Of a stretch of DNA of 35,048 nucleotides, positions 18,309 through 35,048 are shown one piece after another. The stretch spans positions 1-35,048 of the forward strand of contig JAGWOX010000010.1 in assembly GCA_028877145.1 (NCBI GenBank). Reading direction: 5' to 3'. Made by a program: the position numbers and the translations under genes. The first letter of the stretch is position 1, and each line of letters starts with the position of its first letter. Below the pieces are notes generated by a model that saw only the letters and a program-made list of their open reading frames with translations, was not told where the DNA came from and ran no database searches. The DNA is from Acidobacteriota bacterium (GTDB lineage: Bacteria; Acidobacteriota; Terriglobia; Acidiferrales; UBA7541).

Positions 18309-19400
18309 ATGGCCAAGCCGAAGAAAACCAAGACCGGACGCGTGCTCCACGACCCGATACGAGACAAGCTCGTGCCGATCGAGCCTCTCGATCTCGGCAA
18401 GATCCGGTCGGTCGACGATCTGGTGCGCGCCATGGGTCGCACAGCGTTCACCGCGCGGCAGGTGGGCGACGCGGCTGATGTGCTCGAGGCCATGGCACGC
18501 GACAAGGATTGCTTCGTCGTCCTCACGCTTTCGGGCGCAATGACGGTTGCAAAGATGGGTCTCGTGATCGCCGACCTGATCGATTCCGGCATCGTGAAAG
18601 CCGTTGTATCTACGGGCGCGCTGATGGCTCACGGGCTCGTCGAAGCCGCCGGCCGGTCGCACTTCCGCTACGACCCGAAAATGGACGATAAGGAGCTGTT
18701 CCTTGCCGGCTACAACCGCGTCTACGATTCGATCGAGCCTGAAGTGAATCTCGATTACATCGAAGGCATCACCGAGGAAATCCTCAGCGCTTGGGACGCG
18801 GCGGAAATCATCTCCAGCCACCTGCTCCTCGAACGTGTCGGCGAATACCTTCTCAAGCGTGCCCCCGGCCGCGGCATCCTGAAATCGGCGCGCGAGCGCG
18901 GCGTACCCGTCTACATCCCGGCGTTCACCGATTCTGAATTGGGCATCGATCTGGCGCTCCACAATCGCTGGAGGAGACAGAACGGGATTGAGCCGCTGCG
19001 ATTCGACTCCTACGAGGATTTCGAGCATTTCGCAGAACGCATGCTGGCGCAGAAACGCCGCGGTATTCTCACGATCGGCGGCGGCGTCCCGCGCAACTGG
19101 TCCCAGCAATTCGGCGTCTACACCGAACTGATGATCCGTCGCGGCTTCCAGGAGCCCGGCGACCTCAAGCGCTACCACTACGGCGTGCGCATCTGCCCCG
19201 AACCGGTCCATTGGGGCGGCCTCTCCGGCAGCACCTATTCCGAAGCCATCTCCTGGGGCAAGTTCGTTCCCCCCGAAGAAGGGGGCAAATTCGCGGAAGT
19301 GTTCGACGATGCTACCGTAGCCCTCCCGCTGGTCGCCGGGGCCGTCTTCGAGCGCGTCGGCTACACCAGCGCAAAGAAGCCAAAGCGCCGCCGCGGATGA
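18309..19400 (+). CDS. Deoxyhypusine-synthase-like protein (probable homospermidine synthase)
   Basis: 363 residues. The NAD-binding DHS fold is visible through the segment LTLSGAMTVAKMGLVIADLIDSG, GALMAHGLVEAAG, the TIGGGVPRN loop, and EAISWGKF near the C-terminus. K318 in SWGK corresponds to the lysine that forms the enzyme-butylimine intermediate. Bacteria lack eIF5A, so the eukaryotic reaction is not expected. In the cyanobacterium Anabaena a DHS homologue makes homospermidine from putrescine, which I take as the best guess here. The ATG at 18309 has GAGGTGGAAG directly upstream. The Lys-rich N-terminus (KPKKTKTGR) and C-terminus (KKPKRRRG) are disordered-looking. It converges with the arginine decarboxylase gene, which would supply the polyamine precursor. 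Confidence 0.88.
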   Translation: MAKPKKTKTGRVLHDPIRDKLVPIEPLDLGKIRSVDDLVRAMGRTAFTARQVGDAADVLEAMARDKDCFVVLTLSGAMTVAKMGLVIADLIDSGIVKAVVSTGALMAHGLVEAAGRSHFRYDPKMDDKELFLAGYNRVYDSIEPEVNLDYIEGITEEILSAWDAAEIISSHLLLERVGEYLLKRAPGRGILKSARERGVPVYIPAFTDSELGIDLALHNRWRRQNGIEPLRFDSYEDFEHFAERMLAQKRRGILTIGGGVPRNWSQQFGVYTELMIRRGFQEPGDLKRYHYGVRICPEPVHWGGLSGSTYSEAISWGKFVPPEEGGKFAEVFDDATVALPLVAGAVFERVGYTSAKKPKRRRG

Positions 19401-19575: not shown

Positions 19576-20136
19576 TTAGAGGTCTTCTTCCGCGAGAAGA
19601 ATGGCGGCGGCGACGACCGTCGTCCATAGCCCGCGCTTGTCGCCCACCGCCGACTGGGTGATGTTCATCGTGCGGACGATCTTGTTCGAGATGCGGTAGA
19701 CGTCCTTCTTCTCGTCCCACGACAGCTCCGGGTCGAACTCGACGTTGAGCGTCGTGGCCAGCATTTCCGCGGCCAGTTCCTCGCAGTATTCGCCGGCCAC
19801 TTCCTCGGTTTCCCCGAACGAGTGGTGCTCGGACAGGTAGCCGTACATCGACCTGTCGCTGGGAATGGCGATGCCGATCCCGGCGGCGATGAGCCGGTGC
19901 GGCTCGCGGGTGGAGTTTTCGCTCAGAACGGTGAAGGTCACCTGGCCGGGCTTCAGATACTTCAATCCTTCACTGCGGGAGATGAGCTTGGCTCCGGGCG
20001 GCATGATCGAGGAGACGCGAACGATGTTGCAGGCCGCAATGCCGGCAGACCGCAGGGCCAGCTCGAAGCTGCTGAGTCGTTCCCGGTGCTTTCCCACGCC
20101 TTTCGTCAAAAACAGTTTCTTCGCAATGAATGCCAT
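19576..20136 (-). CDS. Pyruvoyl-dependent arginine decarboxylase
   Basis: 186 residues from the ATG at 20136 (MAFIAKKLFLTKGVGKH); the frame extends upstream to 20196 but the added residues are unlike the family. It decarboxylates arginine to agmatine. The proenzyme self-cleaves at the Ser-Ser bond in CNIVRVSSIMPPG (S42-S43), making a pyruvoyl group on the alpha chain. Other family segments are GIGIAIPSDRSMYGYLSEHH and the C-terminal DKRGLWTTVVAAAI. No Shine-Dalgarno is visible, and the short leader carries a U8-loop hairpin. A strong promoter lies at 20168-20196. It converges on the DHS-like gene with the repeat between them, suggesting a polyamine locus. An agmatine-to-putrescine enzyme is not in the window. 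Confidence 0.93.
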   Translation of the reverse strand: MAFIAKKLFLTKGVGKHRERLSSFELALRSAGIAACNIVRVSSIMPPGAKLISRSEGLKYLKPGQVTFTVLSENSTREPHRLIAAGIGIAIPSDRSMYGYLSEHHSFGETEEVAGEYCEELAAEMLATTLNVEFDPELSWDEKKDVYRISNKIVRTMNITQSAVGDKRGLWTTVVAAAILLAEEDL

Positions 20137-20144
20137 AGGTTGTG

Positions 20145-20163
20145 CGCGCAAAAAAAAGGCGCG
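20145..20163 (-). promoter_or_regulatory. Leader hairpin of arginine decarboxylase mRNA
   Basis: On the minus strand CGCGC and GCGCG (5-bp arms) flank a 9-nt loop CTTTTTTTT. It fills most of the predicted ~31-nt leader, directly before a start codon without a Shine-Dalgarno. It could affect translation; this is inference. Confidence 0.35.
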
Positions 20164-20167
20164 ACGA

Positions 20168-20196
20168 AAATTAGCAAGAAGCAAAACCGCTGTCAA
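20168..20196 (-). promoter_or_regulatory. Sigma-70-type promoter of arginine decarboxylase
   Basis: Minus strand TTGACA (20196-20191), exactly 17 nt, TAATTT (20173-20168). The hexamers and spacing are identical to those of the crcB promoter at 8867-8895. Confidence 0.8.
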
Positions 20197-31293: not shown

Positions 31294-33765
31294 CTACTCG
31301 TGCCGCAGCGCCACCATCGGGTCCACGCGCATCGCCCGGCGAGCGGGAACGTAGCAGGCCCCCAGTGCCACCAGAACCAGCAGCAAAGGCACCGCAACAA
31401 ACGTCACCGGATCGGTCGCGCTGATCCCGTAAAGAATGTCCGAAAGCACGCGCGTCACGGCGAACGCGCCACCGAGGCCGATTCCCACCCCAAGGAGCGC
31501 CAAGCCAAGGCTTCTTCCCAGCACCAGCCGCGCGACGTCGCGCCGCTGCGCCCCAAGGGCCACGCGTATTCCGATCTCATGCGTGCGCTGGTTCACCGTA
31601 TAGGAGATCACGCCGTAAATCCCCACACACGCCAGCACCAGCCCCAATAAACCGGCCAGTCCGAAGAAGTCGGCAGCCAGTTTGGGCAGAATGAGCGCCG
31701 GGGTTGTCGCCTCGTCGATCGTCTCCAGGCTCAGCAGAGGAACTTTCGGGTCCAACTGGCTGGCGATCCTGCGAATCGCGGGCAAGGTCCCCGCCGGATT
31801 CCCGGCTGTTCGCACCACGATCAACCGGTCAGAACCATCGTGCTGCAGGATGCAGCGATAGACGAACGGACGCGCCGGTTCTCCAAGGGTGCGGTACTTG
31901 CCGTTGGCAGCCACTCCCACAACGACGTAATCCTTCTTGTCATTCTCAAACAGCAGATGTTTCCCGATGGGGTTCTCGCCGGGCCAGAAGCGCTCGGCGA
32001 AAGTCTGATTGACGATGGCCACGGGCGGAGCCGTGTCGACGTCCTGGCTGGTGAATGGGTGGCCGCGAAGAATCGGGATGCGCATGGCTGCGAAGTACCC
32101 GGGGCCAGCATCGTTGTCGTCGATTTGTGGCCAGCGATCCTTCGGCGCTGCCGCCTTGTCCGGTGTTGTGACGCCATCCATTTCGATATCGAAGGAAAGA
32201 GGAAGATTCGAGGCGTAGCCTGCGTCCACGACGCCCGGCAGCGCCCTGACGAGCTCTTCCAAGCTGCGATAAAAGGCGGTGGCCTGCTCCGGCTTGTAGC
32301 CTACGATTGTCGGCAGAAATGTCGCAGTGACTGCGTTGCGGCCGTCGAAGCCCGGTTGAACGCGATAGGCATGCATCACGCTGCGGAGCGCAAGCCCCGA
32401 GCAAATCAGGAGGAGAAGCGAAAACGCCATCTGTGCCACGACCAGTCCGTTCAGCAGGCGGTGCTTCGTGGGCCCTCCCGCGCCGGTTCGGCCTTCCTCC
32501 TTCAATGCTCCCGCGGGGCTGGTGCGCGAGGCCGTAAGCGCCGGGGCCAGCCCGAAAAGCGCGGTGGTGAGCGCGACTACCAGCAGGGTGAACAGCAGGA
32601 CGCGGAGATCGATCCGGATTCCCAGCACCACGTTCAGTTCCGTCATCAGCGGCAGGGAATTGAGCCCGCGAAGCAGTTCGCGGTTGAAGGCGAACGTCAG
32701 CGAAACCGCGAAAGCCCCTCCAATGACCGCCACCAGCAGGCTTTCCGTCAGCAACTGCCGCACGAGCCGCAATCGCCCCGCGCCCACGGCCATCCGCACG
32801 GCAAGCTCCTTCCGGCGCGATGTGGCCCGGGCCAGGCTCATCGCCGCCACGTTGGCGCAGGCGATCAGCAGCACCAGCCCCCCCACCACCATTAGTACCA
32901 GCGACGCACCGTACATCTGCTTGTTCACGTCGGGCAGCAGCTTCACGTCGTTCGCATGGAACAACGCGACTGTCTGGTCCTTGTCGGTCTTGGGGTATTC
33001 GTGCGCCAGGCGATCGGCGATGGTTTTCAGTTCGGCCTCTGCCTGGGCCATCGTCACGCCGGGTTTCAGACGTCCGACGGTCCAGAGTTGATAGCTCTCG
33101 CGCCTGTCCATTGGAGTGTGCGACAGAGCTCGCATCGAGTCGGCGGTGATGGGCACCCAAACTTTGGGCATCGGCAGCAACGAAAGGCCGTGGAAATAGG
33201 ACGGAGCAACGCCGATGATCGTGAAGAGTTTCCCGTTCAGGTCGATAGGCTTGCCGAGAATGGCAGGGTCGGCATCGAAATCGCGGAGCCACATGTTGTA
33301 ACTGATCACCGCGACAGAGCTTTCGCCCGGCCGAGCCACAGAGGCCGCATCGAACGTGCGGCCGAGCACCGCCCCCACGCCCAGCGCGTCGAAATAGTTG
33401 GGGGTCACAATCGCGCCCGTGGTCAACTGGCTTGCGCCATTGCGTTCAAACGCGACGGGGACCGAGCGATAACCCAAGAGGCTGGAAAAACTGCGGCTCT
33501 GGCTCTTGAAATCCTGATACTCAGGGTAAGAGAGAGGAATGTCCTTGATGAACAGGAACTTCTGCTTCATCTCCGCGTAGACGTTGACCAACTGCTCGGA
33601 ATTTCGCACCGGAAGCGGCCGCAGCAGCACTCCGTCGATCACGCTGAAAATGGCGGTGTTCGCCCCGATCCCCAGTGCCAGCGTCAGCACCGCGACAACG
33701 GTGAAGCCGGGCGATTTCAGCAGCAGCCGGATCCCGTACCGCAAGTCCTGCCAAAACGTGCCCAT
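31294..33765 (-). CDS. ADOP-type ABC transporter permease (second paralogue, no prefix domain)
   Basis: 823 residues from the ATG at 33765, with GGGAGG eight bases upstream; a GTG at 33774 overlaps that ribosome site. It starts [20 protein letters not shown] and immediately enters the first helix ([19 protein letters not shown]). It has two periplasmic MacB-like domains and two sets of three FtsX helices ([41 protein letters not shown]), ending [19 protein letters not shown]. Compared with the paralogue at 22844, it lacks the ~90-residue N-terminal prefix and has no PadR gene beside it. No ATPase gene is linked. The transported substrate is unknown. Transcription probably ends at the palindrome 31226-31276. 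Confidence 0.93.
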
Positions 33766-33834
33766 GCGCAGCACCTCCCGCGTTCACGGATACGCAGTCG
33801 CAGGTCCGGAAGTTCACCGGATTAGCCAAACGTC

Positions 33835-34336
33835 TCACGCCCCGTCGAAGGGTGGGTTGGCCAGCACCACTGATGCCTCGATCTGGCGATCCGGAATCGT
33901 CCAGTATGTCCTGAGTAATTCGGTCTTGCGCTCAGGGGAAACCAGTCTGAATCCGTGACGCTCGTAAAAACGTATCGCCCAATCGGCCGCGGCCCACGTG
34001 CCGACCAGCATACGGCGCGCGCTCATGCGCCGCAGATGCCCGATAAGAGCGCCGCCGACGCCACGTCCTTGACTGCCGGGCAATACGTAGGCGTGACGAA
34101 TTAGATCGACGTCGCGGATGGGCTTGGATGCCCATCACGCCGAGCAGTTCGCCGTCCGCCTCGTAACCCCAGAACGCGACCCCGGCGGCGATCTCGCCTT
34201 CGAGTTCGTTCATCGTCATATAGGGTTCGTGCCACCGATCAGCCGGAATCACGCCGCGATAGGCTTCAGCGGCGGCGTTGATGATGGCGAAGATGGCCGC
34301 ACGCTCAACATCGCGACAGTGTCGGATATTGCTCAT
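33835..34336 (-). pseudogene. GNAT acetyltransferase, frameshifted
   Basis: Two frames together make one GNAT protein. The first (from ATG 34336) reads MSNIRHCRDVERAAIFAIIN through GELLGVMGIQ. It then turns into low-complexity Arg/Ser sequence. The second frame continues as IRDVDLIRHAYVLPGSQGRG and VGGALIGHL, which contains the acetyl-CoA loop QGRGVGGALI, and then TWAAADWAIRFYERHGFRLV. The switch lies near 34119-34126 (CAAGCCCATC on the minus strand) and is consistent with one inserted base. The protein could not be made in one piece without recoding. Neither an A7- nor U-rich slippery site is present, so decay (or a sequencing error) is more likely than programmed frameshifting. It lies downstream of the hemL remnant. 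Confidence 0.85.
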
Positions 34337-34384: not shown

Positions 34385-34656
34385 TCATGACGCGGCAAGA
34401 CATTCCTGCGCCGCCGCAACGATGTGATCGATATCCGCGTGGGTGTGCGCGGCGGATAGGGGAAGCGCTTCGAATTGGGGAGGGAGGAGCAGATCGCCAC
34501 GGTCGAGCACCTAGCGGGCTGCGACCATGCAAGCGCCAATCGCTCTCTCCACAAAGATCGGCTCGCCGCCCACAGCGCGGAATGCGTGCACGGGGCTTTA
34601 CTCCGCCCGCGAGCAAATCGCTTGCCCTCTTGTAAATTTCGCGGCAACGATCGCGC
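34385..34656 (-). pseudogene. hemL: hemL (glutamate-1-semialdehyde 2,1-aminomutase) remnant with large internal deletion
   Basis: Three pieces of GSA aminomutase are found in order on the minus strand. One frame gives REIYKRASDLLAGGV, the N-terminal end. After a 2-base loss, a second frame gives SPVHAFRAVGGEPIFVERAI followed by GACMVAAR and TAG. Directly after that stop comes LLLPPQFEALPLSAAHTHAD with IDHIVAAAQECLAAS and TGA at 34385, the C-terminal end. About 350 central codons, including the PLP-binding lysine, are missing. The remnant starts a few bases after hemB, where hemL is expected in a hemB-hemL operon. The family identity is clear by eye from both termini; a database search was not possible. 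Confidence 0.85.
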
Positions 34657-34659
34657 GCG

Positions 34660-35048
<389 letters not shown>

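Follow-up and report, generated by a model that had tools for sequence, protein, structure and literature searches.

A disabled hemL remnant next to hemB in an acidobacterial genome, probably a pseudogene

In the acidobacterial genome studied here (G000), only the two ends of hemL, the gene for glutamate-1-semialdehyde 2,1-aminomutase, follow hemB directly on the minus strand, i.e., the first ~43 and the last ~42 codons within window positions 34385-34661. Judged from its DNA, this remnant can make no enzyme, since start codon, reading frame and gene middle are lost. We consider it probable, with clear room for doubt, that the remnant is a genuine multi-lesion pseudogene at its ancestral place and that HemL activity is provided by a copy outside the assembly.

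Data and Methods

The window, i.e., the whole stretch of 35,048 nucleotides that was analysed, is a single contig (G000:C88, in the following C88) of a 3.88 Mb genome in 349 contigs that is about 91% complete. Congeners compared were G001-G004, and the HemL of G001 served as reference for the alignments of the remnant; in BLASTP against this protein, the N-terminal query joined both frames of the remnant piece. For the family count, we used 50 genomes, each of at least 90% completeness, and called HemL at E <= 1e-100. HemL assignment in G000 relied on the curated TIGR00713 cut-off of 527.3 bits, and the HemL of G001 reaches 618.8 bits as a control. To score conservation, we took first and second codon positions that are invariant in the four congeners. 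Gene names on the contig that carries the other part of hemB (G000:C22, in the following C22) were derived from synteny with G001-G004 and from sequence reading, for hemB and hemD also from searches.

Since the window encodes most of its large genes (FtsK, RNase J, SdhA-like flavoprotein, permeases) at full length, general sequencing noise was rejected as an explanation. As a side observation, a deoxyhypusine synthase-like gene (window 18309-19400, plus strand) and a pyruvoyl-dependent arginine decarboxylase gene (19576-20196, minus strand) adjoin in this bacterial genome.

Results

The first-pass annotation had reported both HemL termini as readable beside hemB with the gene middle gone, and had named protein alignment as a check. 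Both fragments do match the HemL ends of G001 (Table 1), within a stretch of 277 bases after hemB from which the middle is missing. At the DNA level, the scores of both ends exceed those of all 500 block shuffles (59 vs. a maximum of 34 and 76 vs. a maximum of 28), and a search across the entire own genome recovers both pieces, each with an internal stop. The N-terminal piece starts with ~21 codons in one frame and reads, after the frameshift, SPVHAFRAVGGEPIFVERAIGA; the translation of the C-terminal piece is R-stop-VLDRGDLLLPPQFEALPLSAAHTHADIDHIVAAAQECLAAS.

Table 1. Features at the hemL locus, in window coordinates
Feature	Position	Strand	Evidence
MacB/FtsX-type permease; also hemL neighbour in G001 and G002, supporting synteny	31294..33774	-	profile match and synteny
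GNAT acetyltransferase gene with one-base frameshift near 34120	33835..34336	-	open 168-aa G016 homologue matches both halves at 58-59%; Acetyltransf_7 in second half
C-terminal hemL remnant, TAG at 34511-34513	34385..34516	-	24/40 identical to G001 HemL, E=1e-13
Deletion junction, about 340 G001 HemL codons replaced by about 5 unassigned codons	34517..34531	-	protein alignments and reading
N-terminal hemL remnant, about 43 codons	34532..34661	-	32/42 identical to G001 HemL residues 8-49, E=2e-18
Two-base deletion (frameshift) in GGVNSP motif of N-terminal piece	34596..34600	-	alignment with G001-G004
hemB (ALA dehydratase), C-terminal part, cut by contig end, stop now TAG	34660..35048	-	PF00490, 222 bits; rest at G000:C22:1-576
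Site of former hemL start codon; hemB/hemL overlap is ATGA in G001 and ATAG here, one base lost	34661..34663	-	DNA alignment with G001-G003

Several details of the first description had to be adjusted. The large loss itself holds, while its size of ~350 codons does not: compared to hemL of G001, the net loss is 1005 bp, i.e., about 335 codons, roughly residues 50-389, a stretch that includes the catalytic lysine region (GKIIGGG in G001). The two ends were said to be in different frames, which is true for the first ~21 codons only, given that the N-terminal piece shares the frame of the C-terminal one from 'SPVHAF' onward. Likewise, the stop codon at which they were said to be joined is present as TAG, but forms the second codon of the C-terminal piece.

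The disabling changes in hemL are thus a lost start, a 2-base frameshift, a deletion of ~1 kb and a nonsense codon. The first of these also affects hemB, i.e., because one base of the ATGA overlap is lost, hemB stops with TAG and hemL is left without ATG. By eye, the C-terminal piece also seemed to lack three bases in frame; this was discarded, as the alignment shows an unchanged length. In G001 and G002, no counterpart of the broken GNAT gene downstream of the remnant separates hemL from the permease.

The comparison of the hemB-hemL locus in close relatives, another proposed check, shows a full-length hemL next to hemB in 4/4 congeners, each of which has one HemL. The remnant shares with these intact genes (TIGR00713 / NF000818) the place after hemB and the protein ends, and with those of G001 and G002 also the permease neighbour; it differs in the lost start codon, frame and ~335 codons and in the GNAT gene between hemL and permease. 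Homology to both HemL ends is thus found at the syntenic place, as is expected of a pseudogene, and with the several independent lesions seen there in the DNA, we prefer a real pseudogene to a simple mis-join as the explanation.

Within the family, 46/50 genomes have one HemL. The four genomes with none at the E-value threshold are G000, G066, G048 and G058. In G048 and G058 (93-96% completeness) only more distant aminotransferases were matched. The hemL of G066 (G066:C103) is interrupted by a run of N much shorter than the roughly 56 codons it replaces; we considered it as a second shortened hemL and ruled this out, since it is a scaffold gap written as N. That is, both records are without the middle of hemL, but in G066 the missing part is indicated by N, with the reading frame maintained on either side, whereas the window holds no N and the remnant shows further lesions.

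Contrary to its first description as intact-looking, hemB runs off the end of C88; its other part lies on C22, and about 28 bp are missing between the two, assuming no indels. The assembly break falls at the conserved active-site region (window position 35048; C22 position 1). Both contigs fit as two halves of one hemB, these halves show a like distance to the congeners, and the tetranucleotide similarity of C22 and C88 (0.979) is higher than for any congener. Together with synteny, distance and tetranucleotide make-up disfavour a chimera with a foreign organism.

An artefact of assembly or strain mixture, for which the end of C88 would be a low-coverage or chimeric path while the organism has a normal hemL, is rather unlikely in our assessment but has to be reckoned with. 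It is consistent with the contig break inside hemB, only 28 bp short of C22, with the position of the remnant 0.4-0.7 kb from the contig end and with the fragmentation into 349 contigs, by which hemE is cut as well; furthermore, the family genome G066 is without a whole hemL only through the run of N in its gene. On the other hand, there is no such N in the window, synteny with G001 and G002 holds on both sides, and a mis-join would account neither for the nonsense codon, the lost start and the 2-base deletion in hemL nor for the frameshifted GNAT gene. A real deletion, which the first-pass annotation set beside a mis-joined assembly, is thus supported by the congeners' full gene at this place and by the several lesions, while mis-assembly stays as its alternative.

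We also compared how conserved sites have changed. In the remnant, 16/116 of the scored sites are changed vs. 13/540 in hemB of the same genome (p=3e-6). HemL ends are, however, more variable than hemB in intact genes too, and compared to the most variable intact HemL (G004, 13/131) the remnant shows no significant excess of changes (p=0.44), such that relaxed selection was dropped as stand-alone proof of a pseudogene. At the protein level, 3/13 conserved positions of the C-terminal piece are changed, whereas none of 29 intact HemL has more than 1 such change.

As for the remaining haem route in G000, C22 continues from hemB to hemD, hemC, hemA (for which a search had been proposed) and a ccsA-like gene, all of them open. 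Ferrochelatase is present, and so is hemE, which is cut after about 85 residues at the end of contig G000:C148; searching the assembly for its other part gave no match. No HemL above the TIGR00713 cut-off was found in the assembled ~91% of the genome, where the best score (173.7 bits) belongs to another aminotransferase. Nor does the assembly contain an ALA synthase above the TIGR01821 cut-off (best 304.7 vs. 338.55 bits); the best candidate fits the BioF/Kbl family TIGR01825 better (580.7 bits). Another copy, another ALA route, uptake or mis-assembly, as listed in the first-pass annotation, is hence a sensible set of options, from which these searches remove a second HemL and an ALA synthase over cut-off as far as the assembled part reaches.

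The six class III aminotransferases of G000 make it conceivable that one of them took over the aminomutase step. This is highly improbable: all six have their best matches in other families (acetylornithine-type PRK05769, aspartate aminotransferase families, BioA beside BioF, ArgD, PRK06148), none exceeds 174 bits where the hemL cut-off would have to be reached, and such enzymes also occur in congeners with a retained HemL.

Discussion

The observations are best explained by a decay of hemL at the end of a ccsA-hemA-hemC-hemD-hemB-hemL operon. The remnant resembles ordinary bacterial pseudogenes in that the ancestral place is kept, several disabling changes are present and the adjoining hemB is conserved. 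It differs from them in that haem synthesis depends on hemL, normally a single-copy gene, for which reason a substitute for HemL is to be expected. With the remaining haem route retained, HemL activity would most likely be due to a further hemL in the part of the genome that the assembly misses; as no second HemL occurs in the assembled ~91%, we can only infer this supply. The family's HemL copy number, normally exactly one, counts against it.

Alternatively, HemL may truly be lost and the cell may rely on glutamate-1-semialdehyde slowly and spontaneously turning into ALA, or take up ALA or haem. Neither HemL nor ALA synthase was found in the assembly, and bacterial hemL knockouts are reported to keep some growth without ALA, which has been attributed to spontaneous conversion (PMC6399207); given this record, a leaky state without HemL is conceivable. 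We nevertheless regard such a loss as decidedly improbable, given that haem genes both upstream and downstream of this step are kept, with hemB under strong constraint, that 46/50 family genomes keep HemL and that the assembly is only ~91% complete. The broader proposition of an acidobacterium with hemA, hemC, hemD and hemB in which HemL is wholly lost and ALA is formed from glutamate-1-semialdehyde either by an unrecognised enzyme or spontaneously is likewise improbable.

Our literature search for bacteria in which hemL is lost or a pseudogene returned nothing directly relevant. A pseudogene of this sort is an ordinary kind of event, and none of the readings is unusual except for a truly HemL-less pathway. 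Pending a check of the reads, the broken hemL is a curiosity rather than a discovery; most probably it is just a dead gene of the ordinary kind. Should a copy have escaped the assembly, which is the likelier case, this illustrates that pathway gaps in fragmented genomes call for read-level checks. If the loss is real and there is no other copy, the formation of ALA without HemL could be studied in this organism.
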